Shown here one piece after another: positions 362-15,372 of a stretch of 15,372 nt of DNA. The stretch covers positions 1 to 15,372 of the forward strand of contig JALVOR010000158.1 in assembly GCA_027026295.1 (NCBI GenBank), given 5' to 3'. Within the stretch, counting starts at the first letter, position 1. Each line of letters starts with the position of its first letter. The notes below the pieces were generated by a model. It did no database searches. It had not been told where the DNA came from and saw only the letters and a list, made by a program, of their open reading frames with translations. Position numbers and translations under genes: made by a program. Source of the stretch: Anaerolineales bacterium (GTDB taxonomy: Bacteria; Chloroflexota; Anaerolineae; Anaerolineales; DRMV01).

Positions 362-3300
362 GTGTCCAGTCTAAAGTTACAATCCGGCGATATTATTGAG
401 GCCTCTTTTTGGCCTGAACCCCTAAAGATCGACAAAATAGGGCCGGTGAGCACGGGCTATGTGCGCATTGTCGGCGCTTTGTTGCATAGCCGCCAGCACG
501 TAGATCAAATCTTGCCGCTGGATGCCTTGGATCGCTTGCATCGCCACAAAGTTACAGGGGTTTTTGATGCCCCACCGGCTGACGTCTTTCTGGCCTTGGA
601 AGCCAAACGCTATCGTTATGCTTCGCTTTATGACCCGTTGTTGGCCATGAACATTTCCAAAGTAGACCCGCTCCCGCACCAAATAGAAGCGGTCTACGGT
701 TACATTCTCCAACAGCCGCGTGTGCGGTTCTTGATAGCCGACGATCCCGGCGCAGGCAAGACCATCATGGCGGGGTTGGTCATCAAGGAGATGAAACTGC
801 GTGGCTTGATCAAGCGCATTCTCATCGTGGCACCGGGGCACCTCAAAGACCAATGGCGGCGTGAGATGAAGGAACGCTTTGAGGAGCGTTTTGTGCTTGT
901 TGACCGCCAAGCCATGCGTAGTCATTTCGGCGAAAACATTTGGGAAACCGAATATCAGATCATCACTTCTTTGGACTTTGCCCGGCAGGAAGACGTTATG
1001 CAAGCGTTGGCGGGCGTTTTCTGGGATTTGGTGATTGTTGATGAAGCCCATAAGATGGCGGCCTACCGCTATGGCAACAAGGTCAGCAAAACCAAACGTT
1101 ATCGGTTGGGGGAATTGCTTTCCCATAACAGTGCTCACCTCCTTTTCCTGACGGCGACGCCCCATCGGGGAGACCCTGAAAACTTTCGCCTCTTTCTGGA
1201 TTTGCTACAACCGGGAGCCTTCGCCACAACCGAAATGCTCAACGAATCCATTCGTCGCGGCGACAATCCCCTCTTCATTCGGCGGTTGAAAGAGGATCTG
1301 CGGGATTTTGAAGGCAAGCCACTCTTTTTACCTCGCTATGTCAAAACCCTTACCTTCAACTTGGGCAAAGAATCTCCTGCGGAAAAGGCTCTCTACAACG
1401 CGCTCTCGCGCTACGTCAACGAGCAATACAACAAAGCCCTCGCCAGCGGCGACAAGCGACGCAACGTGGCGTTCGCATTGGTCATTTTGCAACGTCGCTT
1501 GGCCTCCAGCACCTACGCGTTATACCGCTCGTTACAGCGCCGCAAAAAGCGCCTGGTGGAGATGCGCGAGCAAGCCGATGCCTTCAAGCGTGAGCGTCGC
1601 CCTGCCTCTCAAGGCTTCTTTTCTCTGGAGGAGGTGGAAGACCTCAGCGAAGAAGAACGGTGGGAGCAGGAAGCGCTTTGGGAAACCCTCAGTGTGGCCG
1701 AAAATCGCGCTGAACTGGAAGCCGAGATTCAGACTTTAGATAGCCTCCTTGCCCAAGCGAAAGATATCATTGAGCGCGGTGAAGAGGCAAAACTGCAGCA
1801 TTTCAAGCAGGCTTTGGAAACAATGCAAGCGCGCGAACCCGGTGAAAAGGTGTTGATTTTCACCGAGTCTCGCGACACGCTGGATTATCTGGAGCGTCGC
1901 TTGCGTGAGTGGGGCTACTCAGTCTGCACCATCCACGGCGGCATGCCTTTGGAAGACCGCATTAATGCCGAAAGGGTGTTCAAGAACGAAGCCCAAATCA
2001 TGGTTGCCACCGAGGCCGCCGGGGAAGGCATCAACCTGCAATTTTGCCACCTGATGATTAACTACGATATTCCTTGGAACCCCAACCGTTTGGAACAGCG
2101 GATGGGACGCATCCACCGCTACGGCCAAACGCAGGAGGTCACAATTTTCAATTTGGTGGCGGTTGACACCCGCGAAGGTCGCGTGCTCAACCGCTTGTTC
2201 GTCAAGTTGGACGAAATTCGCAATGCTTTGGGAAGCGACAAAGTCTTTGACGTGATTGACGAACTTTTCCCAGGGCGTAATTTGGCACAGTTGCTCACCG
2301 AAGCCGCCGCCAATGCCCGCACATTGGAGGACATCCTGCACGAAATTGAAATTCGCGTTGACGAAGATTACCTGCGCACCGTGCGGGCTAACCTTGGGGA
2401 AAGCCTTGCCACCCGCTACATTGACTACACCCGCATCCGCGAGATGAATGCTCGCGCTCGCGAACATCGTCTCATCCCAGAGTACACCCAGGCTTTCTTC
2501 CAAAAGGCTTGGGAACATCTGGATGGACGAATGCGGCCGCGCAGAGACGCCAGACGGAAAGGCTACTTCATTGTAGAGAAAGTGCCCTATCCTGTGCGGG
2601 CTATTGCCGAGCGAGATGAATTCAAGCGCCGCTTTGGCTACCTCCAGCGGCGATACCCTCTCATCACCTTTGATAAAGATTTGGCAATGCAGGAATCGCG
2701 CGCCGAATTTGTTTCCTTTGGGCACCCCCTCTTTGAAGCCGTCCTGCAGTGGGCAGAGCAGGCGTTGCTGAATGCTTTGCATCGTGGTGCAACTTTCCTT
2801 GACCTTGATGGCCTGCGCGATGGCGTCTTGCTCTTTTATGAGGGCGAAATTGTGGACGGATTGGGCGACATAGCGGGCAAGCGGCTCTTTGCCCTCTTCG
2901 TGCCGCGGGAAGGCGGCCCCATCCAGGCGGTTAATCCGGCCATGATATGGGATTTGGCGCCCGCCGATGCACCCGCCAAGAACGATTTTGATTTGGAAGG
3001 CCTCAAAAATCAGGGCATTGCCTGGCTCATCCCTCATTTGGAAACCTACCGGCAGGAATTGGCTGCCGAACGTCAACGCCAGGCCGAGATCAAGCGCCGC
3101 TACGGTGTGAAATCTTTGCGCTACCTTATTCTGGATTTGGACAACGACCTCATCAAATTGCAAGCCCGGGCGGATCAGGGGGAGGACGTGGCGTTGGTCA
3201 TTCGCAACAAACGCCAGCAAAAAGAGGCCTACCTGCGAGCCTTGCAGGAATTGGAAGAAACGCTGGAACGCGAGAACCGCCTTTCTTTGAACACCCCGCG

Positions 3301-3751
3301 CTTTCTCTCGGCAGTGCGGGTGATTCCTAAAATGGTGCCCGAGGCCGTGGATGCCGCCATGCATTCCAACGCCGAAATTGAACGCGTGGGCATGGAAATG
3401 ACCATGCGCTACGAACGTGAGCACGGTCGTCAGCCGGAAGACGTCGCCGCAGAAAACCTTGGCTACGACGTCCGCTCGGTGGAAACCCTGCCCGATGGCG
3501 CCACGCGTTACCGCTATATTGAAGTCAAAGCGCGGGCGGCTATAGGGCCGGTAGCGCTCACGAAAAACGAATGGTTCAAAGCCCAGCGCTTTGGCAAGGA
3601 CTATTACCTGTATGTGGTGCTCAATGCGGCCACGGAGCCACGGCTCTACATCATTCAGAACCCAGCCAGCCGCTTGCAGCCGGAAGAGATGGTAGAGGTA
3701 CGTTACAGAATCCCTCTGGAAGACATCCTCGAGGCGGGAGCGGCCCCGTAG
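362..3751 (+). CDS. SNF2-family DEAD/DEAH helicase with C-terminal DUF3883
   Basis: This is a superfamily 2 ATPase expected to translocate on duplex DNA. I chose GTG 362, giving 1129 residues: GAGGG at 352-356 lies about 6 bases upstream, and the protein then opens with the family-like LQSGDIIEASFWPEP. The longer frame from GTG 302 has no ribosome-binding site. From 362, motif I is DDPGAGKT (127-134), motif II is DEAH (227-230), motif III is TATP (264-267) and motif VI is QRMGRIHRYGQ (579-589), so the ATPase looks active. A charged helical stretch (about residues 400-500) separates the two RecA lobes. The C-terminal part (about 1030-1110) resembles DUF3883/NOV_C, with GYD at 1034-1036 and E-V-K at 1054-1056, compatible with a PD-(D/E)XK-like nuclease fold. 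SNF2-DUF3883 helicases occur in defence islands, including as DrmD of DISARM. The gene is less GC-rich than the operon downstream (28/60 in row 2221), so it may have been acquired separately. Confidence 0.93.
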   Translation: MSSLKLQSGDIIEASFWPEPLKIDKIGPVSTGYVRIVGALLHSRQHVDQILPLDALDRLHRHKVTGVFDAPPADVFLALEAKRYRYASLYDPLLAMNISKVDPLPHQIEAVYGYILQQPRVRFLIADDPGAGKTIMAGLVIKEMKLRGLIKRILIVAPGHLKDQWRREMKERFEERFVLVDRQAMRSHFGENIWETEYQIITSLDFARQEDVMQALAGVFWDLVIVDEAHKMAAYRYGNKVSKTKRYRLGELLSHNSAHLLFLTATPHRGDPENFRLFLDLLQPGAFATTEMLNESIRRGDNPLFIRRLKEDLRDFEGKPLFLPRYVKTLTFNLGKESPAEKALYNALSRYVNEQYNKALASGDKRRNVAFALVILQRRLASSTYALYRSLQRRKKRLVEMREQADAFKRERRPASQGFFSLEEVEDLSEEERWEQEALWETLSVAENRAELEAEIQTLDSLLAQAKDIIERGEEAKLQHFKQALETMQAREPGEKVLIFTESRDTLDYLERRLREWGYSVCTIHGGMPLEDRINAERVFKNEAQIMVATEAAGEGINLQFCHLMINYDIPWNPNRLEQRMGRIHRYGQTQEVTIFNLVAVDTREGRVLNRLFVKLDEIRNALGSDKVFDVIDELFPGRNLAQLLTEAAANARTLEDILHEIEIRVDEDYLRTVRANLGESLATRYIDYTRIREMNARAREHRLIPEYTQAFFQKAWEHLDGRMRPRRDARRKGYFIVEKVPYPVRAIAERDEFKRRFGYLQRRYPLITFDKDLAMQESRAEFVSFGHPLFEAVLQWAEQALLNALHRGATFLDLDGLRDGVLLFYEGEIVDGLGDIAGKRLFALFVPREGGPIQAVNPAMIWDLAPADAPAKNDFDLEGLKNQGIAWLIPHLETYRQELAAERQRQAEIKRRYGVKSLRYLILDLDNDLIKLQARADQGEDVALVIRNKRQQKEAYLRALQELEETLERENRLSLNTPRFLSAVRVIPKMVPEAVDAAMHSNAEIERVGMEMTMRYEREHGRQPEDVAAENLGYDVRSVETLPDGATRYRYIEVKARAAIGPVALTKNEWFKAQRFGKDYYLYVVLNAATEPRLYIIQNPASRLQPEEMVEVRYRIPLEDILEAGAAP

Positions 3752-3831
3752 GCGTTCCAATAGATGCCTTGACAGGGGTACAGTGGGGTGCATGCAAAAT
3801 CTGTAGAAATGTCCGCCGGGTTGCGGAAACG

Positions 3832-3927
3832 CCCTCACCCCTCAAGCCGCCTGGCGGCGGCTTTCTCCCCTCTCCCACTGGGAGAGGGGAGAAACGGCGA
3901 GCGCAGCGAGCCAAAGTGGGGTGAGGG
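3832..3927. repeat. dispersed palindromic repeat (REP/MITE-like)
   Basis: Nested inverted repeats: outer arms CCCTCACCCC (3832-3841) and GGGGTGAGGG (3918-3927), and an inner near-continuous hairpin with 16-bp perfect arms (3862-3877 and 3879-3894) around a single C. No protein is encoded. Elements with CCCTCACCCC ends and a CTCTCCC/GGGAGAG core are, from memory, dispersed intergenic repeats in several bacterial groups. It separates the helicase gene from the Fic operon and could also attenuate read-through. It has no poly-T tail, so it is not a classic terminator. Confidence 0.7.
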
Positions 3928-3974
3928 AGAAACAACGCTTTTACAACATTTGCCTGCGCCCGGTACAGTGAGCG

Positions 3975-4037
3975 TTATTTACATTTGGCTTGAAAAATGA
4001 TAATATGGTGGGGCGCTATTCACGTTTCTGTAAATAA
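3975..4037 (+). promoter_or_regulatory. promoter and putative operator of the fic-methylase-DUF499 operon
   Basis: TTTACA (3978-3983) and TAATAT (4001-4006) are 17 bases apart, a good sigma-70-type promoter, with a start expected near 4013. The -35 lies inside TTATTTACA (3975-3983), whose exact inverse TGTAAATAA is at 4029-4037 in the leader. The two half-sites are centred 54 bp apart, about five helical turns, so a bound protein could bridge them. The second site with its preceding C, CTGTAAATAA (4028-4037), recurs exactly at 11542-11551 in the AbiEi operator. The promoter call is moderate; repression through these sites is inferred. Confidence 0.55.
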
Positions 4038-4060
4038 GACCTTCTATCTGGAGCGGCGCT

Positions 4061-5269
4061 GTGAACCCCAACGAATTTCGTGATTCGCCAGCGGGGCGGT
4101 TGGTCAAAGCCAAGGGAGGGTATTGGGCGTTTGTGCCGAACCCCTTGCCGCCCACCATAACCTGGTCGGGCGAACTGGTCTCGGTGCTCTCGGAGGCAGA
4201 CCGAGCCATTGGTGAACTGGCCGGTCTGGGACGCTTGGTGCCCAATCCTCATCTGCTTATCCGCCCGTTCATCCGCCGAGAGGCGGTGTTTTCTTCCCGC
4301 ATTGAAGGCACGCAGGCGTCCCTCTCCGATTTGTTCACCTACGAAGCAGTGCAGTTGCCCCTCTTTGACCTGCCCGACGACGTGCGAGAGGTGCACAACT
4401 ATGTGCGGGCATTAGAGTATGGTTTAGCGCGGATGCAGGATTTCCCTCTAAGCCTGCGTCTGATTCGGGAAATCCATGCCGTGCTCATGGAGGGCGTCCG
4501 GGGCGAGACTCAGACGCCGGGTGAGTTCCGCCGCAGTCAAAATTGGATTGGAGCCCCAGGTGCCACCTTGTCCGAGGCCTCGTATGTCCCTCCGCCGGTG
4601 CCCGAGATGTGGGAGGCCCTGGATGCCTTTGAGAAGTTCCTTCACGCGCCCTCGCCGCTTCCGCCGCTCATCCGCATTGGGCTAATTCACTACCAATTTG
4701 AGGCCATTCACCCCTTTCTGGACGGCAACGGCCGGGTTGGGCGGTTGTTGATCACGCTGCTGCTTTGTGCCTGGGACTTGCTGCCCTCGCCGTTGTTGTA
4801 CCTGAGCCCCTATTTCGAAACCCATCGGGCGCAGTACTATGCCCGCCTGCGGGCTGTGACCAGCCAGGGGGCATGGGGAGCATGGCTGCTGTTCTTCCTC
4901 AAGGGTGTAGCCGTGCAGGCTAAGGATGCCGTGATTCGCATCAAGAGATTGCAGGCCATCAGAGAGCGTTACCGCGCGTTGTTGCAGGGCACCCGCGCCT
5001 CGGCCCGCCTGCTGCAAGCTATTGATTTGCTCTTTGAGAAGCCTGTGCTGCAAACGCGCCAGGTGCAGACGGCCCTGAATTTGACCAATTTCGTCACCGC
5101 CCAGCGTTATCTGGATAAATTGCGCGAGGCGGGTATTGTGCGGGAGATCACTGGCAAATCCCGGAACCGTGTTTACAAGGCTGAGGAAATTTTGGCCGTG
5201 CTGGAACAACCAACTTTGGAAGAACCCTCTGAGCCACAGCAAGCATCGCAAGGAGAATCCACCCTATGA
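4061..5269 (+). CDS. Fic family protein (AMPylase type) with C-terminal winged helix
   Basis: The gene encodes 402 residues from GTG 4061, with TGGAG 7 bases upstream. Fic enzymes transfer AMP or other nucleotide moieties from a nucleotide cosubstrate to protein hydroxyl groups. The catalytic loop HPFLDGNGRVGR (217-228) is complete, with catalytic His217 and the phosphate-binding G-N-G-R. The N-terminal Fic_N-type region contains SSRIEG (78-83), matching the class II inhibitory motif (S/T)xxxE(G/N), so activity is probably autoinhibited by Glu82. Residues of about 310-385 look like a winged-helix domain (LLQAIDLLFEKPVLQTRQVQTAL, then VTAQRYLDKLREAGIV), common in this subfamily and consistent with DNA binding or autoregulation. 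Its stop overlaps the methylase start (ATGA, 5266-5269), so the two are translationally coupled. The target is unknown: it could be a toxin or guard of the defence module, or a regulator. Confidence 0.92.
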   Translation: MNPNEFRDSPAGRLVKAKGGYWAFVPNPLPPTITWSGELVSVLSEADRAIGELAGLGRLVPNPHLLIRPFIRREAVFSSRIEGTQASLSDLFTYEAVQLPLFDLPDDVREVHNYVRALEYGLARMQDFPLSLRLIREIHAVLMEGVRGETQTPGEFRRSQNWIGAPGATLSEASYVPPPVPEMWEALDAFEKFLHAPSPLPPLIRIGLIHYQFEAIHPFLDGNGRVGRLLITLLLCAWDLLPSPLLYLSPYFETHRAQYYARLRAVTSQGAWGAWLLFFLKGVAVQAKDAVIRIKRLQAIRERYRALLQGTRASARLLQAIDLLFEKPVLQTRQVQTALNLTNFVTAQRYLDKLREAGIVREITGKSRNRVYKAEEILAVLEQPTLEEPSEPQQASQGESTL

Positions 5270-8127
5270 CCCACGACCGCCGCTTCATTGAAGAAACCTT
5301 CCCTGTTAAGGAAGTCAGCAAGCACGCCTCCAAAGAAAAAAACATCCGCCACGGGCACATCAGCACGCTGCATATCTGGTGGGCGCGCCGCCCACTGGCC
5401 GCCAGCCGCGCCACGGCCTATGCCGCCCTGGTCCCGCCCCCCAAGGACACGCTGGACTGGCAAAAGCAGCGTGACTTCATCGCCGACCTGAGCAAGTGGG
5501 AAAACGCCCTCAGCACGCCCCATTTGGAACGCGCCCGCCGGGCCATCTACGAGGCCCATGCCGAGCGCCTGAGCGCCGAGTTGGGCAAGCCCGTGACCGT
5601 AGAAGACATTGAAGCCGGTCGCGTGCCGCCGCCCCGCGTGTTGGACCCCTTTGCCGGGGGCGGCTCTTACCCGCTGGAAGCCCTGCGCCTGGGCTGCGAG
5701 GCCTACGCCAACGATTACAACCCCGTGGCCGTGCTCATCCTCAAGGCCACGTTGGAATACCCCCAGAAGTACGGCCGACCCTTCGCGGGCATGCCCGCCG
5801 ACCTGCTGGAGGATGACGAAGCCGCGCCTTCCGATGATGGCCCTCGGCAGATGGACTTGGGCTTGGAGGATGCGCCTGCCGCCGACGCCGTACCCAAGGA
5901 TTTCAACCCCCTCCTGGCCGCGGTGAAGAAGTGGGGCCGCTGGGTGCTGGAGGAAGCCCGCAAGGAACTGGCTGCTTTCTACCGGTCACCCGACCCCGAC
6001 GAGACCGTCGTCGGCTACATCTGGGCCCGCACCCTGCCCTGCCAGAACCCCTCCTGCGGCGCGGAGATCCCCCTCATGCGCCAGTTCTGGCTGGCGAAGA
6101 AGAAAGACCGCGAAATTGCCCTGCACCCCGTGGTGAGCGACGGCAAGGTGGATTTCGAAATCGTGGCCCGGGGCAAAAAGGTAGGGGCGCACGGCGGTGC
6201 GCCCGGTGCACCCTACGCCCCCTGGCCCGCGGGCTTCGACCCCAAACAGGGCACCGTGCGCCGCGCGGTGGTCACCTGCCCGGTGTGCGGCGCGGTGATG
6301 GACGCGGACACCACCCGCCGCCTGTTTCGCGAAGGCCACGCGGGGCAGCGGATGGTGGCCGTGGTCACAACCCGCAAGGGGCAGCGGGGCAAGCTCTACC
6401 GCCTGCCCACCCCGGAGGATTTGGACGCCTACGCCGCGGCCGAACGCGCTCTGGCCGAGAAACGCGAGCGCCTCGCCCCGGCGTGGGGCATGGAGCCAGT
6501 GCCAACGGAGCCAATTCCCCCAATTAGTGGGAAATTTAATACAACCTCATATGGAATGAATACTTGGGGTTCCCTATTCAACTCCCGCCAGCAACTGGCC
6601 CTGCTCACTTTTGCCGAGAAGGTGCGCCAGGCCCACGCCGCCATGGTCGCCCAGGGCTACCCGGGGGATTTCGCGCTGGCAGTGGCGACGTACTTGGGAT
6701 TAATTCTTTCACGCACGGTTGACTTTGAAAGTGGCTTATGCCGCTGGCATCCTCAGTGGGAATTTATCCCTAACACATTTGCGCGCCAGGCCTTGCCTAT
6801 GGCGTGGGATTTTGCCGAGTTAAACCTTTTCTCTCCTCTGCTCACCGGCACATGGGAGAGTATGCACCGCCAGATTATGCGAGCAATTCAGTCGGCGATT
6901 GTGTCATCAATACCGGGGAAAGTTTCCCACGCCTCGGCCACCCACCTGCCCTACCCCGACGACCACTTTGACGCGGTACTCACCGACCCGCCTTACTACT
7001 ATTCGATGACTTACGCTGACCTTTCAGATTTCTTTTATGTGTGGTTAAAACGTAGCTTGGGGTATCTTCATCCCGATTTGTTTTCCACACCACTAACGCC
7101 CAAGTCCGACGAAATTATTGAAATGCACTTTTGGGACAAAGCATCGCCTAAAGATAAAATTTGGTTCGAGAATAAATTGAGAGAGGCTTTTAAAGAAGTC
7201 CAGCGTGTCCTCAAACAAGATGGTGTTGCCATTGTTGTATATGCTCATTCAACGACGGAAGGTTGGGAAGCGGTTATCAACGCCTTGTTAGCGAGCGGTT
7301 TGGTTGTTTCGGGTGCGTGGCCTGTTCACACCGAGATGAAATCACGAATGATTGCCCATGACTCGGCCGCCCTGGCTTCTTCCATTTACATTGTGGCCCG
7401 CAAAATGGCCCGGCAGGGCGTGGGCTTCTACCCCGAAGTGCGGGCCGAACTGCGCCGCACCATGGACGCCAAACTCCAGCGCCTGTGGGAAGAGGGCATC
7501 GGCGGCGCGGACTTCTTCATTGCGGCCATCGGCGCGGGCATCGAGGTCTTCGGTAAGTACGAAAAGGTCATGGATTACGAAGGCAACCTCATCCGTGCCG
7601 AACAACTGCTGGACGATGTGCGGAAACTGGCCACGGATTTCGCCGTGCGCCAGATTTTGCACAACGGCTTCGCCGGTGAGGTGAGCGACCGCACCCGCTT
7701 CTATGTGCTCTGGCGCTGGAACTATGGCGAAGCCCGGGTGCCCTTCGACGAGGCCCGCAAGTTGGCCCAGTCCTGCGGCCTGGACCTGACCGAGGAGTGG
7801 CGCCGCAAAGGGAGTTTCGTCAAGAAGGAAAAGGAATTCGTCCGGGTGCTGGGTCCCCACCAGCGGGCGGCGGACGACCTGGCCTCATCCGGCGAACTCA
7901 TCGATGTGTTGCACCATGTGCTCCTGCTCTGGGAAAAGGGCCAACGCCCGGCCATGGTGCGCCGCCTGAGCGAGAGCGGCTACGGCACCTCGGAGGCCTT
8001 CTACCGCGTGGCCCAGGCGGTTTCCGAAAGTTTGCCCTTAGAGAGCAAAGAGAAGAAATTGCTGGACGGCCTGCTGACCGGCCGCGCCCGGCTGCAACAG
8101 GAAGTCAAGCAGAGCCGTTTGTTATGA
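5266..8127 (+). CDS. DUF1156 domain DNA methyltransferase
   Basis: The 953-residue protein starts at ATG 5266, with AAGGAG at 5249-5254. The N-terminus carries the DUF1156 signature (HIWWARRPLAASRA, about 40-53). SAM-binding motif I is DPFAGGG (127-133) and catalytic motif IV is DPPY at 574-577 followed by YYSMTYADLSDFFYVWLKR. DPPY indicates amino methylation, N6-adenine or N4-cytosine. Between them sits a zinc-ribbon-like pair, CQNPSC (259-264) and CPVC (338-341). The C-terminal 250 residues have no motif I can name. In the context of a SNF2 helicase and a DUF499 ATPase it is the likely self-marking enzyme of a restriction-like system. Base composition is patchy: segments between about 6505 and 7365, including the bases just after the catalytic motif, are AT-rich within an otherwise very GC-rich gene. 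The target sequence cannot be read from the protein. Confidence 0.92.
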   Translation: MTHDRRFIEETFPVKEVSKHASKEKNIRHGHISTLHIWWARRPLAASRATAYAALVPPPKDTLDWQKQRDFIADLSKWENALSTPHLERARRAIYEAHAERLSAELGKPVTVEDIEAGRVPPPRVLDPFAGGGSYPLEALRLGCEAYANDYNPVAVLILKATLEYPQKYGRPFAGMPADLLEDDEAAPSDDGPRQMDLGLEDAPAADAVPKDFNPLLAAVKKWGRWVLEEARKELAAFYRSPDPDETVVGYIWARTLPCQNPSCGAEIPLMRQFWLAKKKDREIALHPVVSDGKVDFEIVARGKKVGAHGGAPGAPYAPWPAGFDPKQGTVRRAVVTCPVCGAVMDADTTRRLFREGHAGQRMVAVVTTRKGQRGKLYRLPTPEDLDAYAAAERALAEKRERLAPAWGMEPVPTEPIPPISGKFNTTSYGMNTWGSLFNSRQQLALLTFAEKVRQAHAAMVAQGYPGDFALAVATYLGLILSRTVDFESGLCRWHPQWEFIPNTFARQALPMAWDFAELNLFSPLLTGTWESMHRQIMRAIQSAIVSSIPGKVSHASATHLPYPDDHFDAVLTDPPYYYSMTYADLSDFFYVWLKRSLGYLHPDLFSTPLTPKSDEIIEMHFWDKASPKDKIWFENKLREAFKEVQRVLKQDGVAIVVYAHSTTEGWEAVINALLASGLVVSGAWPVHTEMKSRMIAHDSAALASSIYIVARKMARQGVGFYPEVRAELRRTMDAKLQRLWEEGIGGADFFIAAIGAGIEVFGKYEKVMDYEGNLIRAEQLLDDVRKLATDFAVRQILHNGFAGEVSDRTRFYVLWRWNYGEARVPFDEARKLAQSCGLDLTEEWRRKGSFVKKEKEFVRVLGPHQRAADDLASSGELIDVLHHVLLLWEKGQRPAMVRRLSESGYGTSEAFYRVAQAVSESLPLESKEKKLLDGLLTGRARLQQEVKQSRLL
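6181..6216. repeat. GC-rich palindrome inside the methylase reading frame
   Basis: GGGCGCAC (6185-6192) and GTGCGCCC (6197-6204) form a perfect 8-bp stem, and outer GTAGGG (6181-6186) pairs with CCCTAC (6211-6216). Palindromes beginning GTAGGGGCGCAC resemble dispersed intergenic repeats I recall from several bacteria. Here it encodes VGAHGGAPGAPY, low-complexity residues just before the second zinc-ribbon half, and keeps the frame. Confidence 0.5.
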
Positions 8128-8140
8128 GGAGCGGAAGGCG

Positions 8141-11100
8141 ATGGATATCCGGAAGTTGATTACCCAGGGCGAAAGCCAAACCGTGGAATTCAAGAGCAGC
8201 CTGCAATGGGATGTCGAAGCAGGCCGGAAGAACAAAGACCTGCGTTTCGCGGTGCTCAAGACCATCGCCGCGTTCCTCAACACCGAGGGCGGCACCCTGC
8301 TCATCGGTGTTCAGGACGACGGCAGCGTCTTTGGGCTGGAAAAGGACCTGGAACTCCTGGGCGGCTCGCGGGATCGGTTCGAGCAGACCGTCGCCAACCT
8401 GATTCGGCGCTACCTGGGCGCTCAATTTGCCCCATTCATCACAACCCGCTTTGCGCGGGTGGAAGGCCACACCGTGTATGTGGTGCAGGTCCAGCCCGCA
8501 CCCGAACCGGCGTATCTGCAAACGGACAAAGGTAGGGCGTTCTTCGTGCGCATGGGGACCACATCCCCACCCCTGGATGTGGCCGAAACCCACAAGTACA
8601 TCCTCGCCCATTGGGGGCCTTCTGGCCGCGCTGCATCTGCTACACCTTCTTCCCCGGAGGCTGCTATGAGCCAACCATTCCACACCATCGCCGTCCCCCA
8701 CGAGGATATCTGGCAAGGCCGTTTCACTTTGGAAACCTTCGCTGCTGACCTCTGGAAGGTGGCCCACAAGCAGGGGCCGGAAGCGTATTGGGATGCCGAA
8801 TTGTTCTTCCGGCAGACTTATCCCACCCGCGGGCTGCAACACCTCTACGATGTGGTCGGTCAACGCCTGCGGGGCCGGGGCGGCGCGTCGGTCATCCAGT
8901 TGCAAACGCCCTTTGGCGGCGGCAAAACCCATGCCCTCATCGCCCTTTATCACAAGGCCCAGGAGTGGGGGGCTAACCCGGTGGTGGTTTCCGGCACCGC
9001 GTTGTCCGGTCGGGAAACGCTATGGGGCTTGATGGCCGAACAACTCACCGGCGCGCGGGCAGGGTTCGAAGAGCCCACCTCGCCGGGGCGGGCCAAACTG
9101 GAAGCCCTGCTCCGCGAGCACGAGCCTGTGCTGGTGCTCATGGACGAGGTGCTGGAATACATGACCAAGGCCGCGGGGGTAATGGTCGGTAAGACCACCC
9201 TGGCCGACCAGACCTTGGCCTTTTTGCAAGAACTCACCGAGGCCGCGGCCACGATGGCGCGCGTGGTTGTCGTGCTCACCCTGCCTTCCAGCCTGCTGGA
9301 GCATTACGGCGAGCAGGCCACCCACATGTTCGAGCAACTGAAGAAAATCAGCGGGCGGGTGGAAACCGTCTTCACCCCGGTGGACGATAGCGAAGTGGGC
9401 GCAATCATCCGCCAGCGCCTTTTTGCCTCGGTGAACGACGAGGCTGCGGCCCAGGTGGTCAACGCTTTTGTGGAGCAAGCCGAGCGGGAAGGGGTGCTGC
9501 CCCGCGGTGAAGAAAGTGTGGCCTACCGGGAGCGTTTCAAGCAAACCTATCCCTTCCTGCCCGAGGTGGTGGATGTGCTTTACCACCGCTGGGGCAGTTT
9601 CCCCACCTTCCAGCGCACGCGCGGCACCCTGCGGTTGCTGGCCCTGGTGGTCGGGGCGCTGCTGGATTCCAGCCGGCCATACATCTCCCTGGCCGATTTC
9701 GACCTGACCTCCCAAGAAATTCGCCGGGAACTGCTGAAGCATATCGAAAGCGCCTATGACAGTGTGCTGGCCGCGGACATCACTGGCGACACCGCCGGTG
9801 CCCGACGGGTCAACCGGGAAATCGGCCGGGCCTACCGCGGCCTGCGCTTGGGCGAGCGGGTGGCGACCACGATTTTCATGTATTCCCACGTCGGCGGCAA
9901 AGGCGAGGCCGGGGCCACCTTGGCTGAAATCAAACGCCAGAACCTGATGAGCGGCGTGCCAGCCAGCATCATCGCCGAGGTGCTGCAAAAACTGAGCAAC
10001 CGTCTGCTGTTCTACCTGCACGAGCACAACGGGCGCTACTATTTCACCACCACGGCCAACCTGAACCGCGCCCTCACCATCCGCATGGAAAATGTGACCG
10101 CGGAGGAACTGCAGGCCGCGGAATACGACCTCCTGCGCAAGGTGGCGGGGGACCAGCGCATGGCGACTTACATCTGGCCGACGGACACCGCCGACATCCC
10201 GGACAACGAAGCGCCCAAGTTGGTCATTTTGCCCACCGAGGCCCCCGAACGCATGATGGCCTTTCGCGACCAAAAGGGCCAGACGCCCCGGGTGAACCGC
10301 AACACCCTGTTCTTCCTGACGCCTTTGCGCGCGGCGCGGGCCAACTTCGACAACCTGCTGCGCCGCCATCTGGCCTATCAGGAACTGCTGGAGCAGGAAA
10401 CCCTCTCACTGACCGCCGAGCAGCGCAAGCGCCTGGAGCGGGATGCCAAGCGCACAGGGCAGGATTTGCACGAGCAAATCCTCAACCTCTACCGCCTGCT
10501 CTACCTGCCCGCCCGTGAGGGTTGGGATACCCTGGATCTGGGCACGCCCACCTTTGGCAGCGGCCAGAAGTTGAACGAGCGGGTCTATGAAACCCTCCAC
10601 CTCGAGAAGCGGCTGCTGGAAAAACTGGCCCCGCTGGTAATCAAGGAGCGGTTTCTGGCCGACCGTCCCTTTGTCGAGACGGTGCAACTGGCCCAGAGCG
10701 GCCCCCGCACGCCGGGGGAGATTCTGGCCGTCGGACGCCAGGCATGGGAACAGGCCATCGCGGAAGGTGTGCGGCAAGGGCTCTTTGGCCTGGGCGTGCT
10801 GGACGACGAGGGACGCCCGCGCTGCCTCTACTTCAAGCAGACGCCTACGGTGAGCCTGGAAGGGCGCGAGGTCATCCTCCGCGCGGACTTGTGCCAGCAG
10901 GAAGCCGCGGAGCCCTCGGCGCTTCCTGGGGGCGACGCCGCGCCTTCCCGGAGCATTAGGCAACCCGCGGGCAATTACCAGACCACGACCTTGCCCGGCT
11001 GGGGCGAGGGGGGCACGGCTACAGAAACCACTGTGCAAGGCCCCACACGCCAGCAACTCACCCTGCGGTTCGCCCTGCCCTTTGGTCAGGCTTCCAGCCT

Positions 11101-11248
11101 GCTGGGGTTGTTCAATCTGCTTCAGCACCGGTTCAAGACAATAGAGATTACCATCCAACTGCGCGACGGCGAAATCAGCGAGGCGGACATCGAAAGCAAA
11201 ATCCGCGAAACTTTTCGTCAGATTGGCACGGATGTGGATGTGGAATAA
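8141..11248 (+). CDS. AlbA_2 (Schlafen-like) domain fused to DUF499 ATPase
   Basis: The frame of 1035 residues starts at ATG 8141, 13 bp after the methylase, with GAGGAG upstream. Residues of about 10-70 match the AlbA_2/Schlafen domain (ESQTVEFKSS, then AAFLNTEGGTLLIGVQDDG), usually a nucleic-acid-associated or regulatory domain. After a Ser/Ala/Pro linker (about 160-175), residues 176-1035 match DUF499, a large AAA-type ATPase family: phosphate-binding TPFGGGKTH (256-264) and Walker B VLVLMDE with D335-E336. The C-terminus (about 950-1035) is a low-complexity linker followed by a final alpha/beta segment. DUF499 ATPases recur beside DUF1156 methylases in defence islands; a motor or remodelling role on DNA is inferred. 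The normal DUF499 start lies exactly at Met176, which has its own strong Shine-Dalgarno, so one frame may yield both the fusion and a separate 860-residue DUF499 protein. Confidence 0.9.
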   Translation: MDIRKLITQGESQTVEFKSSLQWDVEAGRKNKDLRFAVLKTIAAFLNTEGGTLLIGVQDDGSVFGLEKDLELLGGSRDRFEQTVANLIRRYLGAQFAPFITTRFARVEGHTVYVVQVQPAPEPAYLQTDKGRAFFVRMGTTSPPLDVAETHKYILAHWGPSGRAASATPSSPEAAMSQPFHTIAVPHEDIWQGRFTLETFAADLWKVAHKQGPEAYWDAELFFRQTYPTRGLQHLYDVVGQRLRGRGGASVIQLQTPFGGGKTHALIALYHKAQEWGANPVVVSGTALSGRETLWGLMAEQLTGARAGFEEPTSPGRAKLEALLREHEPVLVLMDEVLEYMTKAAGVMVGKTTLADQTLAFLQELTEAAATMARVVVVLTLPSSLLEHYGEQATHMFEQLKKISGRVETVFTPVDDSEVGAIIRQRLFASVNDEAAAQVVNAFVEQAEREGVLPRGEESVAYRERFKQTYPFLPEVVDVLYHRWGSFPTFQRTRGTLRLLALVVGALLDSSRPYISLADFDLTSQEIRRELLKHIESAYDSVLAADITGDTAGARRVNREIGRAYRGLRLGERVATTIFMYSHVGGKGEAGATLAEIKRQNLMSGVPASIIAEVLQKLSNRLLFYLHEHNGRYYFTTTANLNRALTIRMENVTAEELQAAEYDLLRKVAGDQRMATYIWPTDTADIPDNEAPKLVILPTEAPERMMAFRDQKGQTPRVNRNTLFFLTPLRAARANFDNLLRRHLAYQELLEQETLSLTAEQRKRLERDAKRTGQDLHEQILNLYRLLYLPAREGWDTLDLGTPTFGSGQKLNERVYETLHLEKRLLEKLAPLVIKERFLADRPFVETVQLAQSGPRTPGEILAVGRQAWEQAIAEGVRQGLFGLGVLDDEGRPRCLYFKQTPTVSLEGREVILRADLCQQEAAEPSALPGGDAAPSRSIRQPAGNYQTTTLPGWGEGGTATETTVQGPTRQQLTLRFALPFGQASSLLGLFNLLQHRFKTIEITIQLRDGEISEADIESKIRETFRQIGTDVDVE
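8656..8668 (+). promoter_or_regulatory. internal Shine-Dalgarno and start for DUF499
   Basis: GGAGG (8656-8660) lies 5 bases before ATG 8666-8668, in frame with the upstream AlbA_2 part. The encoded MSQPFHTIAVPHEDI is what a stand-alone DUF499 N-terminus looks like from memory. The site reads SPEAAM in the fusion. It implies internal initiation, or is a relic of a once separate gene. Confidence 0.7.
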
Positions 11249-11507: not shown

Positions 11508-11536
11508 TTGACGACGTGCCTTTTTGTGAGTATAAT
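11508..11536 (+). promoter_or_regulatory. promoter of the AbiEi-like gene
   Basis: TTGACG (11508-11513) and a perfect TATAAT (11531-11536) are 17 bases apart. Transcription would start near 11543, inside the operator dyad, giving a leader of about 40 bases. This is the best sigma-70-type promoter in the window. Confidence 0.75.
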
Positions 11537-11583: not shown

Positions 11584-12222
11584 ATGTACAACACACCTTC
11601 CTTCCATCGGGCGCTGCAAGCCTTCCAGGGAAACAACGGCTGGCTGCGCACAAGCCAGGCGCTTCGGCTGGGCATTTCCCCGCGCACCCTCTACATGCTT
11701 CACAGGCAAGGGCATATCGTGCGGGCGGCCCGGGGCCTCTACCATCTGGCCGACCAGCCTGTGCCTGCCCATCATGATCTGCTGGTTGTGGCTCAACGTG
11801 TCTCCAAAGGGGTGATTTGCCTGCTCTCTGCCCTGGCTTATTATGACCTGACCACCCAGGTGCCCCATCAAGTGTACGTCGCGCTTCCCAACCACGCGGA
11901 GAAGCCGCTGCTGGATTACCCACCACTGCGCATCTTTTGGCTTTCAGAGCGCCCCTACCGTGCGGGTATTCAGGAGCACCGTATTGGCGGCATTCGGGTG
12001 CGCATGTATAGCCCCGAGAAGAGCATTGCCGATGCCTTCAAGTTCCGCAACAAAATCGGGCTGGATGTTGCTCTGGAAGCCCTCAAGCGTTATCTGCAAC
12101 AAGGCAATGTTCATCTGGAAACGCTGCGAGCCATGGCCCGCGTCAACCGTGTTGAGCGCATCATGCAGCCTTATCTGGAGGCGCTCCTTTCCATGTCGTT
12201 ACCGGCAAATGATACCGGATAG
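11584..12222 (+). CDS. AbiEi-like type IV antitoxin / transcriptional regulator (orphan)
   Basis: The 212-residue protein starts at ATG 11584. The N-terminus is a winged helix (WLRTSQALRLGISPRTLYMLHRQGHIVRAARGLYHLAD, about 20-55) as in AbiEi proteins, followed by the conserved LSALAYYDLT stretch and the C-terminal signature YSPEKSIADAFKFRNKIGLDVALEALKRYL (about 142-171). AbiEi antitoxins repress transcription and counter the AbiEii nucleotidyltransferase toxin. No AbiEii gene follows: the next gene is a recombinase on the opposite strand, so this copy is orphan, or its partner lies elsewhere. No good Shine-Dalgarno precedes the start; AGGG lies some 18 bases away. The gene sits between two copies of a hairpin repeat. 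A plain transcription-factor role for the defence locus is an alternative. Confidence 0.87.
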   Translation: MYNTPSFHRALQAFQGNNGWLRTSQALRLGISPRTLYMLHRQGHIVRAARGLYHLADQPVPAHHDLLVVAQRVSKGVICLLSALAYYDLTTQVPHQVYVALPNHAEKPLLDYPPLRIFWLSERPYRAGIQEHRIGGIRVRMYSPEKSIADAFKFRNKIGLDVALEALKRYLQQGNVHLETLRAMARVNRVERIMQPYLEALLSMSLPANDTG

Positions 12223-12321: not shown

Positions 12322-13872
12322 TCATGTCTCAGCCGAATCTGCCATCACGAACGGATTTTCAAGGCGAAACCCGCCGTCGTCCAGGGCGTGTAAGCCTGGG
12401 ATGGTGTGGAAAAGGAGGAGATATTCCGGCTTGGGATAGACTTCCACAATGCGCTTCTCGGGGATGTTCACCACCACTTTTTGGAAAAGCATCTGCACCA
12501 GTTCCCGTCGTTCTTCGGCTTCGGCCACCTGCCATGCCTCGGCAATGTTCAGCAACTGCACAGCCGACGCCTCCACTTCCGAAGGCTGCATCCGCTCAAG
12601 CACGTTGAGGCGCGTCTGGATTTTCTCCACCTCCCGCCAGAATGCGGCTTCTTCGCCGTCGTACAGGTCATTGGCATAGAGTTTACGCAGCCGCTTGAGC
12701 CGGCCCTTCAGCTTGACGCTTTCTTTCCGCGGGTCGGGCTGCTGTTCCTTTTCTTCGTCCAGCATGGCTTCCACCATGGCTTCCCATCCTGTTGGCAGGT
12801 GCAGGTGCTGAATCAGGAAGCCCACTTGGGCCTCCATATCGTCGGCGCGCACGCTTCTGCGCTTGTTGGGGCAACTTGCGCCGCGGTCTCGGGCGGTATC
12901 GCGGTAGTAGCGGATACCGTGGGTGGCACTCTGCGCCCTGAGGGGCAAGCCGCAGTGGGCACAAACCAGCAGGCCGCCGTTGAGCAGGTAGGTGCGCCGG
13001 GTGTGCTGGTGATTCTTGACCCGTGCCCGGCGCAGGGCGCGGGCCTGCTGGCAGCGTTCAAAGAGTTCTTGCGAAATCAGGGGCTCGTGTCTTCCTATAA
13101 CGCCGATTTCCTGCTCGCCGTTTTCCAGTTTGCGGGCGTAGGCGCCCCGATACCTGACCATGCCGTAGTAGAAGGGGTTGGTGAGCATGGTGCGGACGCC
13201 GTCTTTGGTAAAAGGCCGCCCGCGCAAGGTGCGCATGCCCTGCTCGTTCAACCAGTCGGCAATCTGCTGGTCATAATACAGCCCGCTGGCACAGCGCTCG
13301 AAGGCTTCCCGAACGTAAGGCGCGGTTTTCTCGTCGGGAACGGCCTGCTTTTTGCCATTCACCTCGACGCTGCGATAACCCACCGGCGCCCAGCCATTGT
13401 GCAGGCCCTGCATGGCACGTTCGTACTTGCCCTTGTGGGTTTCGGCGCTGAGGTTGTCGGAATAGAACTCGCCCAGCGACGCGAGCAGGCTGAACAGCAA
13501 TTTGCCCTCCGCCTTCTCAAGGTCAAAATCCTGCTCCACGGCTTTGAGCACTACCTTGGACTGCTGCAGCAGGTGGATGATTTCCAAAGCCCATTCCAGC
13601 CGGCGCGCCAGGCGGTCGATTTTGTGGACATAGAGTATGTCAAAGCGCCCCTGCTGGGCATCCCGCAACATTTCGGTGATGCCGGGGCGGTGCTTGTGGC
13701 GGTAGGCGGAAATCGCTTCATCGGCGTAGAATTTGACAATGGTCACACCATCCCGGCGGGCGCGTTCCAGGATCTGGCGCCTCTGAGCTTCCAGGCTGAA
13801 AGAGTCGCTTTGCATCTCGGAAGAGTAGCGGATGTAACCGACGCCGATTTTGGGAGCCTTTGTTTTGTCCAT
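12322..13872 (-). CDS. large serine recombinase / site-specific integrase
   Basis: The protein has 516 residues from ATG 13872. The open frame extends 107 codons further upstream but without homology-like sequence, whereas MDKTKAPKIGVGYIRYSS is a standard recombinase N-terminus, with AAGG just before it. The resolvase domain (about 9-150) has YIRYS with catalytic Ser17 and KIDRLARR. A Recombinase domain follows (GWAPVGYR to NPFYYGMVRYRG, about 185-275), then a zinc ribbon (CAHC, later SCPNK, about 325-365), then a helical, charged coiled-coil-like region (about 390-480). This order is typical of large serine integrases, which recombine attP and attB and often mobilise islands. It converges on the AbiEi-like gene. 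A 68-residue ORF lies 95 bases upstream and could be co-transcribed. The attachment site cannot be identified with certainty. Confidence 0.92.
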   Translation of the reverse strand: MDKTKAPKIGVGYIRYSSEMQSDSFSLEAQRRQILERARRDGVTIVKFYADEAISAYRHKHRPGITEMLRDAQQGRFDILYVHKIDRLARRLEWALEIIHLLQQSKVVLKAVEQDFDLEKAEGKLLFSLLASLGEFYSDNLSAETHKGKYERAMQGLHNGWAPVGYRSVEVNGKKQAVPDEKTAPYVREAFERCASGLYYDQQIADWLNEQGMRTLRGRPFTKDGVRTMLTNPFYYGMVRYRGAYARKLENGEQEIGVIGRHEPLISQELFERCQQARALRRARVKNHQHTRRTYLLNGGLLVCAHCGLPLRAQSATHGIRYYRDTARDRGASCPNKRRSVRADDMEAQVGFLIQHLHLPTGWEAMVEAMLDEEKEQQPDPRKESVKLKGRLKRLRKLYANDLYDGEEAAFWREVEKIQTRLNVLERMQPSEVEASAVQLLNIAEAWQVAEAEERRELVQMLFQKVVVNIPEKRIVEVYPKPEYLLLFHTIPGLHALDDGGFRLENPFVMADSAET

Positions 13873-13925
13873 GGCCTTGTTTTCTTTGAAGGGTTTACCA
13901 GGGGAACCAGGAGCGCGGCTTCGAG

Positions 13926-13934
13926 ATTGTAGCA
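13926..13934 (-). promoter_or_regulatory. putative extended -10 promoter of the recombinase
   Basis: On the minus strand TGCTACAAT (13934 down to 13926) forms an extended -10. A possible -35, TTGCAC, sits about 20 bases further upstream, which is too far to be convincing. The leader to ATG 13872 would be about 45 bases. Confidence 0.35.
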
Positions 13935-14583: not shown

Positions 14584-15372
14584 ATGATTCCCCGCACGCT
14601 GACCGCCAAACTCCTGGCCCTGGCCGGGCAGTATCCCGTGGTGATGCTGACCGGCCCCCGCCAGTCAGGCAAGACCACGTTGGTGCGGGCGGCCTTCCCG
14701 CACTGGCCGTATGTTTCCCTGGAAGAGCCGGATATCCGCCAGTTCGCCCGCGACGACCCGCGCGGTTTCCTAGATAATTACCCCGACGGTGTCATTCTGG
14801 ACGAGGTGCAACGCGTGCCGGCGTTGTTTTCCTACATTCAGGCCATCGTGGACCGCCAACGGGAAGCCCGCTTCATCCTGACGGGCTCCGCCAATTTCCT
14901 GCTGATGGAGCGGGTTACTCAAAGCCTGGCCGGGCGGACGGCAGTGCTCCACCTGCTGCCCTTTTCCCTGTCCGAACTGGCGCAGGGCGGTTTCACCTTC
15001 GACCGTTATGAAACGCTTCTTTTCCAGGGCCAGTACCCCCGCCTTTACGACCGGGGGCTTTCGCCTGCCGATTTCTACCCTTCTTACCTCCAGACCTATA
15101 TTGAGCGCGACGTACGCCTGCTGAAGAACATCGGCGATCTGGACGCCTTTATCCGGTTCGTGCAGTTGTGCGCCGGTCGGATTGGGCAATTGCTCAACTA
15201 CACCAGTTTGGCGAACGACGCCGGCATTAGCCCCAATACAGCCCGCGCCTGGCTTTCCATTCTGGAAGCCTCGTACATCGTCTATCGTCTGCGCCCCTGG
15301 CATCGCAACTTCAACAAACGGCTCATCAAAGCGCCGAAACTGTATTTTTACGATACCGGCCTGGCCTGCTCG
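14584..15372 (+). CDS. AAA_14 / DUF4143 family ATPase (3' end beyond window)
   Basis: ATG 14584 has GGAGG 5 bases upstream, and 263 codons stay open to the window edge. The protein opens MIPRTLTAKLLALAGQYPVV and has Walker A GPRQSGKT (24-31), Walker B VILDEVQ with D73-E74, and the family's LTGSANFLLM segment. From about residue 135 (LLPFSLSEL) onward it matches DUF4143, including the YIERDVRLLKNI stretch and a winged-helix-like part (SLANDAGISPNTARAWLSILEASYIVYRL). These STAND-related P-loop ATPases, usually about 380-420 residues, are abundant in archaea and in Chloroflexota-like bacteria, and their role is poorly defined. The gene has its own palindrome-covered promoter, so it is probably independent of the recombinase. 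Confidence 0.9.
   Translation, partial: MIPRTLTAKLLALAGQYPVVMLTGPRQSGKTTLVRAAFPHWPYVSLEEPDIRQFARDDPRGFLDNYPDGVILDEVQRVPALFSYIQAIVDRQREARFILTGSANFLLMERVTQSLAGRTAVLHLLPFSLSELAQGGFTFDRYETLLFQGQYPRLYDRGLSPADFYPSYLQTYIERDVRLLKNIGDLDAFIRFVQLCAGRIGQLLNYTSLANDAGISPNTARAWLSILEASYIVYRLRPWHRNFNKRLIKAPKLYFYDTGLACS

Follow-up and report, generated by a model that had tools for sequence, protein, structure and literature searches.

Results

A complete Hma system with a Fic gene inside it

Is a Fic protein encoded within a DNA-modification defence operon a working part of the system around it, or a lodger? The question is raised by a 15,372-nucleotide stretch of DNA, called the window below, which makes up the entire contig C158 of a draft Anaerolineales genome with an estimated completeness of 82.5%. 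Between positions 362 and 11248 it carries four genes, all on the plus strand with open and intact frames, and in this row a Sofic-type fic gene stands between the hmaA and hmaB genes of Hma, a defence system also named Type-1 BREX-related. A preliminary description of the same DNA had proposed these four genes together with their domains, their motifs and an ATGA coupling of fic to the methylase gene, all of which were confirmed by frame, domain and motif checks.

362..3751, plus strand: hmaA, an SNF2/Helicase_C helicase with a C-terminal NOV_C/DUF3883 domain and a PD-(D/E)XK-like GYD...EVK motif (PADLOC HmaA, 2.8e-210)
4061..5269, plus strand: fic, Fic_N plus Fic domains, Sofic-type, class II (PADLOC SoFic, 4.1e-123)
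5266..8127, plus strand: hmaB, a DUF1156 DNA methylase of the N6/N4 type (PADLOC HmaB, 3.8e-136)
8141..11248, plus strand: hmaC, a DUF499 AAA+ ATPase with an N-terminal SLFN_AlbA_2 domain (PADLOC HmaC, 3e-114)

Payne et al. 2021 (PMC8565338) described Hma as a three-gene helicase/methylase/ATPase system and counted 1,638 instances, distributed over 26 phyla. PMC12839542 (2026) renames it Type-1 DUF499-centred BREX-related and gives its parts as a helicase-nuclease effector, an N6 methylase and a DUF499 ATPase. Judged by profile and motif, the helicase, DUF1156 methylase and DUF499 ATPase of the window are the complete HmaA/HmaB/HmaC set: the three genes adjoin on one strand, all three PADLOC profiles are strong, and the SNF2 helicase carries the putative C-terminal PD-(D/E)XK nuclease that characterizes the Type-1 BREX-related systems. 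The start of hmaA was placed at the GTG at 362, with GTG 302 as an alternative; in its product the NOV_C/DUF3883 domain, which was already taken as a restriction-nuclease domain in PMC3710099 (2013), spans residues 1006-1098, with GYD...EVK from residue 1034. Besides this motif HmaA keeps GAGKT and DEAH, HmaB keeps DPPY (from D574) and DPFAGGG, and HmaC keeps the ATPase motif GGGKT.

The PADLOC matches thus bore out the proposal of a restriction-like defence locus, whereas the accompanying view that its core genes lacked their known partners proved wrong, the full three-gene set having gone unrecognised. The same description had argued against DISARM, which was upheld: no match to DrmB or DrmC was shown for the five window proteins in PADLOC (for the helicase, among the best 25 of 71 families), and the DrmD models fitted the helicase worse than HmaA and fell below the NCBIfam DrmD cut-offs. 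A RapA or DpdE identity of the helicase was also discarded, the matches being weaker than HmaA or far under the curated cut-offs.

The window shares with the Hma system as described the helicase (SNF2 plus DUF3883), the DUF1156 methylase and the DUF499 ATPase within one locus, and differs from it in two respects: a Sofic-type Fic lies between hmaA and hmaB, and HmaC begins with a Schlafen-type AlbA_2 head in place of HEPN. Judged by sequence, the locus is a variant of a known defence system, complete in its parts, that has a predicted Sofic-type AMPylase nested in it and a Schlafen-type head on its ATPase. The main text of PMC12839542 (supplements apart) mentions neither Fic, Fido nor AMPyl; within the collection of papers searched, Fic together with DUF1156 gave nothing beyond a sediment proteomics study, judged by its title, and DUF499 together with DUF1156 gave nothing beyond PMC12839542.

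The nested protein is a Sofic-type Fic without the antitoxin gene of E. coli Sofic

The Fic protein has the two motifs of Sofic, HxFx(D/E)GNGRxxR and an N-terminal (S/T)xxxE(G/N), as the catalytic HPFLDGNGRVGR from H217 and the inhibitory SSRIEG from S78. Its best PDB matches are SoFic chains, while against the NCBIfam SoFic model it scored 182 bits and missed the cut-off of 550. It resembles Sofic (PADLOC SoFic; PMC12249575) in its Fic_N and Fic domains, in the class II inhibitory motif ahead of the Fic core and in a C-terminus that resembles a winged helix-turn-helix (wHTH); matches of this end to HTH_13 and MarR_2 in the Thermus and L060 Fic proteins (see below) were sub-cut-off. When eight Hma-linked or Hma-adjacent Fic proteins were aligned, the catalytic motif was present in all eight and the inhibitory motif in seven, the exception being the Zixibacteriota protein of L139. 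Between the window and L060 the nonsynonymous divergence (dN) was 0.15 for Fic, 0.22 for HmaB and 0.29 for HmaA, with synonymous sites near saturation, and on this measure Fic looks constrained.

E. coli Sofic is described in PMC12249575 as a toxic abortive-infection AMPylase, and its next gene encodes a 47-residue antitoxin, AS1. In the window, no AS1-type small antitoxin gene lies directly downstream of fic; there is no room for one, because hmaB starts inside the fic stop codon, the two genes sharing ATGA at 5266-5269, so that a methylase gene with a 4-nt overlap stands where E. coli has AS1. A toxin nested in a DNA-modification operon is likewise found with PrrC/RloC, and PMC3710099 records Fic/Doc or RhuM genes near PrrC/RloC in restriction-modification operons; here the host system of the predicted toxin is Hma instead.

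Fic recurs in Hma loci of separate lineages

The preliminary description had linked Fic to DUF1156, and the neighbourhood check found Fic within Hma loci of L060, Thermus plasmids, L134 and L052, which refutes the notion of an association peculiar to this genome. In the phylum of the window, 100 of 400 genomes carried HmaB. SoFic was sought in those 100 and in 15 further genomes, with nine weak-HmaB genomes of 26 (G016, G018, G055, G074, G081, G086, G093, G095 and G100) outside the search, and 56 of the 115 matched (40 of 80 and 16 of 35); the HmaB-positive G111, G117, G253 and G317, whose rows were not among the matches listed, gave no SoFic match. HmaB-Fic distances and contig numbers were compared by eye, fragmented genomes giving lower bounds, and SoFic lay near HmaB in four of the 115. 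These are the window; G173 (L052), with the order hmaB-fic-hmaC, fic starting on the last base of hmaB (1-nt overlap) and an AlbA_2 protein after hmaC; G096 (L043), with Fic downstream of hmaC in opposite orientation; and G035, with only a Fic fragment between hmaA and hmaB. This fragment (L036, 2-1222, minus strand) shares a stop-free frame with hmaB and might be an N-terminal extension or a dead remnant.

A local Fic hidden Markov model, the source of the coordinate-based result, was run on 80 HmaB loci from named genomes (the best 80 of 587 relatives, many of which end at contig edges, so that a Fic beyond would be missed). Three had Fic in or beside the locus: L060 (Anaerolineae), which has the hmaA-fic-hmaB order of the window; L134 (Singulisphaera), where the order is hmaA-fic-hmaB-hmaC and the fic and hmaA genes overlap; and L139 (Zixibacteriota), with fic about 400 bp upstream of hmaA. 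PF02661 searches of 79 of these 80 genomes added no Fic-Hma case, judged by contig number, and none of 27 Hma loci on viral contigs had Fic. In the phylum of L134, 56 of 392 genomes were HmaB-positive; of the 55 besides that of L134, 37 carried Fic, the nearest 11.5 kb from HmaB, and none had Fic within 10 kb of HmaB (tables read by eye).

Plasmids gave HmaB in 198 records, and 12 of the 60 listed, all Thermus, have a Fic overlapping the match; features are named there only where they overlap it, so that an adjacent, non-overlapping Fic would not appear. Conversely, of the 60 plasmid Fic matches listed (1195 in total), 12 are Thermus records, and all 12 are listed for hmaB as well. These records come from related strains and are non-independent; six of 16 Thermus records (H17, H34, H12, H16, H13 and H22) were read directly and the rest by feature names. 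On pVV8 of T. thermophilus HB8, fic and hmaB overlap by 8 nt and hmaA is divergent, and in T. brockianus the order is hmaA-fic-hmaB with a fic/hmaB overlap of 20 nt. Fic next to DUF1156 therefore extends beyond the window genome, with several insertion points and at least two Fic subfamilies, and Fic in Hma is uncommon.

INDEPENDENCE and chance were addressed with an HmaB tree, a Fic tree and a PF02661 density null. In a FastTree of 118 HmaB proteins, the six intact loci with Fic in the operon fell into four separate clades (the window with L060; Thermus; L134; G173), and parsimony required six changes, two of which are due to the scoring of G006 (L032) and of a deleted Thermus plasmid (L169) as Fic-less. 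In the Fic tree, in which three of 12 inner branches were starred for support, the window grouped with L060 and Thermus with an unlinked Fic, and L134 and L052 together made up a distant subfamily; identity between the Hma-linked subfamilies is 22-27%. A single ancient recruitment of Fic was rejected because there are at least two such subfamilies and the Fic-bearing HmaB proteins are scattered. The density null, based on 159 PF02661 matches in 288.5 Mb from 79 genomes (rounded sizes), predicted 0.037 same-strand Fic genes in the gaps inside the 80 loci, which add up to 133 kb; two were observed (P 7e-4).

Fic is lost from some Hma loci and is one of several kinds of insert

In three of 15 T. 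thermophilus/T. brockianus records (SNM1-1, SNM1-7 and SNM6-6), a common deletion of about 0.9 kb has removed most of fic, leaving the upstream region and both ends of the gene, approximately 25 codons at the start and 57-58 residues at the end, which are mutually out of frame. On the JL-18 plasmid a transposase gene interrupts fic. In T. oshimai (H32), the sixteenth Thermus record, a transposase lies in the hmaB match (feature names only). Close to home, G006, a near relative of the window, has an OLD-like AAA_21/AAA_15 ATPase in the hmaA-hmaB slot and not Fic.

Across all loci read, gaps of at least 350 bp occurred at 60 of 105 hmaA-hmaB junctions and 45 of 100 hmaB-hmaC junctions. Pfam and PADLOC were run on 114 hand-picked open reading frames, mostly on the same strand, longer than 140 aa and nearly all from 195 gap frames, to which the L060 fic and one L169 frame had been added. 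Pfam gave AAA_21 in 9, AAA_15 in 8, SLFN_AlbA_2 in 5, Fic in 5 (including those of the window, L052 and L168, three loci fetched because of Fic), NYN in 4, DarT in 3, and HEPN, GmrSD and Macro in 2 each; the inserts other than Fic match known defence families. Fic is one of several kinds of accessory gene in Hma loci, alongside OLD-like ATPases, AlbA_2, DarT, NYN and HEPN, and the non-nuclease toxins Fic and DarT extend the nuclease inserts that PMC12839542 reports as numerous. That Fic is a standard part of Hma was ruled out by the genome, locus and phylum surveys, and an earlier wording by which Fic was wired into the system was too strong: in or adjoining most Hma loci read no Fic was found, and fic is broken in four Thermus plasmids that retain Hma.

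Three further observations were made during these surveys. The DarT (three) and Macro (two) domains nested in Hma operons (inserts L032-L169) are possible DarTG-type modules. Between hmaB and hmaC of L033, at 8977-9717, lies a gene whose 246-aa product has no Pfam match and contains RNGILH, a motif that looks HEPN-like by eye; a gamma-glutamylcyclotransferase-like gene stands beside it. On pSYSX of Synechocystis PCC 6803 (L171, 6989-8065), a Sofic-like fic gene is convergent with, and overlaps, a type I hsdS gene.

The region upstream of fic

The hmaA-fic gap measures 310 bp, compared with about 115 bp in L060, and contains two features.

3835..3935, strand not assigned: dispersed repeat, with long similar copies on contigs C276, C315, C280 and C202 and shorter ones elsewhere in the genome
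3973..4040, plus strand: promoter-like site, TTTACA-17-TAATAT at 3978-4006, with half-sites TTATTTAC ... GTAAATAA spotted by eye, conserved and co-varying with L060

With its repeat and a promoter-like site near fic, the gap suggests that fic is possibly transcribed separately from the helicase gene, and fic-hmaB-hmaC may form one transcript apart from hmaA. Two promoter-like sites were scored in the upstream region, versus 0.1 in shuffles. The block common to the window and L060 contains TAATAT and the half-sites, which read TTATTTAC/GTAAATA in the window and TTATTTGC/GCAAATA in L060; they differ in step, so that the two arms change together. A script requiring at least 10 matched pairs found inverted repeats in six of 11 stretches upstream of fic genes, including L060 (the L054 repeat lies well upstream), and none for the window, L053 or L055; the window arms are imperfect and widely spaced. 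The wHTH-like C-terminus of Fic could act as an autoregulator.

A Schlafen-type head on HmaC

The DUF499 ATPase had been recognised correctly from the start, and its N-terminal SLFN_AlbA_2 domain had been overlooked. The domain covers residues 11-144 (5.6e-20; about 8171-8572) and carries E11, E16 and D59, which are kept in 98, 98 and 100% of 40 fused HmaC proteins (>940 aa, window included). PF04326 occurs together with PF04465 in 42 of the best 120 of 3303 HmaC relatives, Rhodothermus profundi included (counted by eye), a share that is biased upward because the query itself has AlbA_2. The best PDB sequence match of HmaC is a Schlafen chain (E 0.0037), followed by further Schlafens at 0.02-0.03. 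Aligned to chain 5yd0, E11/E16/D59 lie opposite E218/E223/D261, and the spacing of these three chain residues (5, 38) equals that of E205/E210/D248, the Glu-Glu-Asp site of rat SLFN13 (PMC5862951). By alignment, then, HmaC has the acidic triad of a Schlafen-type RNase. An N-terminal HEPN domain, which PMC12839542 reports on the ATPase of 1370 of 2446 taxa and which is thus frequent and not obligatory, is absent from the window HmaC, and the Schlafen-type head may substitute for it as a putative RNase head.

Neighbouring genes

Downstream, positions 11584-12222 encode an AbiEi_4 family protein (PADLOC AbiEi, 8.9e-71) with a promoter-like site of its own at 11508-11536. It was set aside as a part of the system because of that separate site and because no AbiEii-like match was found among the window proteins scanned. 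A large serine recombinase (12322-13926, minus strand) is related to CcrB/XisF, under their curated cut-offs, and may be the sign of a mobile element on which the island is carried. An AAA_14/DUF4143 ATPase gene (14584-15372) ends at the contig edge.

Discussion

What has been established here directly is which genes and motifs are present, that reading frames overlap, that the arrangement recurs across separate lineages and that amino-acid change is low. We lean towards the view, which we hold as probable rather than firm, that the window encodes an Hma (Type-1 BREX-related) restriction-modification-like system in which the nested Sofic-type Fic would provide a second, abortive-infection line. 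Judging from work on the family, HmaB would mark self DNA, HmaC would scan or assemble on unmarked DNA, and HmaA would translocate and then cut with its C-terminal PD-(D/E)XK domain. Fic, probably expressed from its own promoter and translationally coupled to HmaB, would be restrained by its inhibitory motif and possibly also by Hma proteins, until infection upset the cell or the Hma complex; it would then AMPylate a host target, and growth would stop. What we infer in this scheme is the marking of self against non-self, the trigger and the target, and any Fic-Hma contact; the abortive or guard branch proposed in the preliminary description is plausible. The strongest evidence is the repeat of the arrangement across distant HmaB clades with overlapping frames.

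Several results weigh against this view. Fic stands in or beside three of the 80 named loci, in none of the viral-contig loci and nowhere within 10 kb of HmaB in the 55 genomes of the L134 phylum. The four Thermus plasmids with a broken fic have full-length annotated hmaA, hmaB and hmaC. The density null disregards the clustering of defence genes in islands, and L060 entered the set as a close relative of the window; leaving L060 out reduces the count to one versus 0.037, a weak excess.

One could instead envision that a self-contained Sofic gene landed in an insertion-tolerant operon, that its overlap with hmaB is compact packing, and that it has no functional contact with Hma. We regard this as somewhat unlikely, although the large share of hmaA-hmaB and hmaB-hmaC junctions that hold varied, unrelated genes agrees with it, as does the loss of Fic from Thermus plasmids in which Hma stays; PMC12249575 treats Sofic as a defence system in its own right, and close relatives of the window Fic occur without hmaB in the stretch read, for example in L056 (64% identity). 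What such an explanation accommodates poorly is that separate insertions are repeatedly on the same strand with frames overlapping hmaB or hmaA, and that every Thermus record listed for Fic was also listed for hmaB. Another scenario is that Fic would be a control switch, its wHTH repressing the fic-hmaB-hmaC promoter in the manner of a restriction-modification controller protein, with AMPylation tuning that repression. The promoter-like site with its co-varying half-sites, the inverted repeats upstream of other fic genes and the wHTH-like C-terminus are compatible with this role, and what the Thermus deletion removed is the catalytic domain, whereas the sequence upstream, the wHTH segment and the overlap with hmaB were spared. 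The old start, however, now opens a frame of 31 codons other than that of the remnant wHTH, whose translation is therefore uncertain; the script gave no inverted repeat for the window itself, and the retention of the catalytic motif in all eight aligned Fic proteins and of the inhibitory motif in seven also speaks against it. We consider the control switch distinctly unlikely.

Within the abortive-infection view, HmaB, or an Hma complex containing it, might itself be the antitoxin of Fic, keeping it inactive as long as HmaB is intact and freeing it once a phage inhibits, degrades or titrates HmaB. By analogy with E. coli Sofic, it is hmaB, overlapping the fic stop codon, that takes the AS1 slot in the window and in Thermus; we treat the idea as tentative and, for the present, doubtful. 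PrrC senses attack on EcoprrI. If the antitoxin idea is true, AMPylation would be a sensor of failed DNA modification, as with PrrC.

Phages have been isolated on T. thermophilus HB8 (PMC11437467), and the presence of Fic-Hma on pVV8 of this phage-susceptible strain makes any restraint of the Fic toxin by the methylase directly testable, with the natural Fic-deleted Thermus plasmids as ready controls. Hma is presented in PMC8565338 as widespread, and it is poorly understood. If protein-modifying toxins are shown to be repeatedly built into it, Hma would take its place among restriction systems with a suicidal backup.

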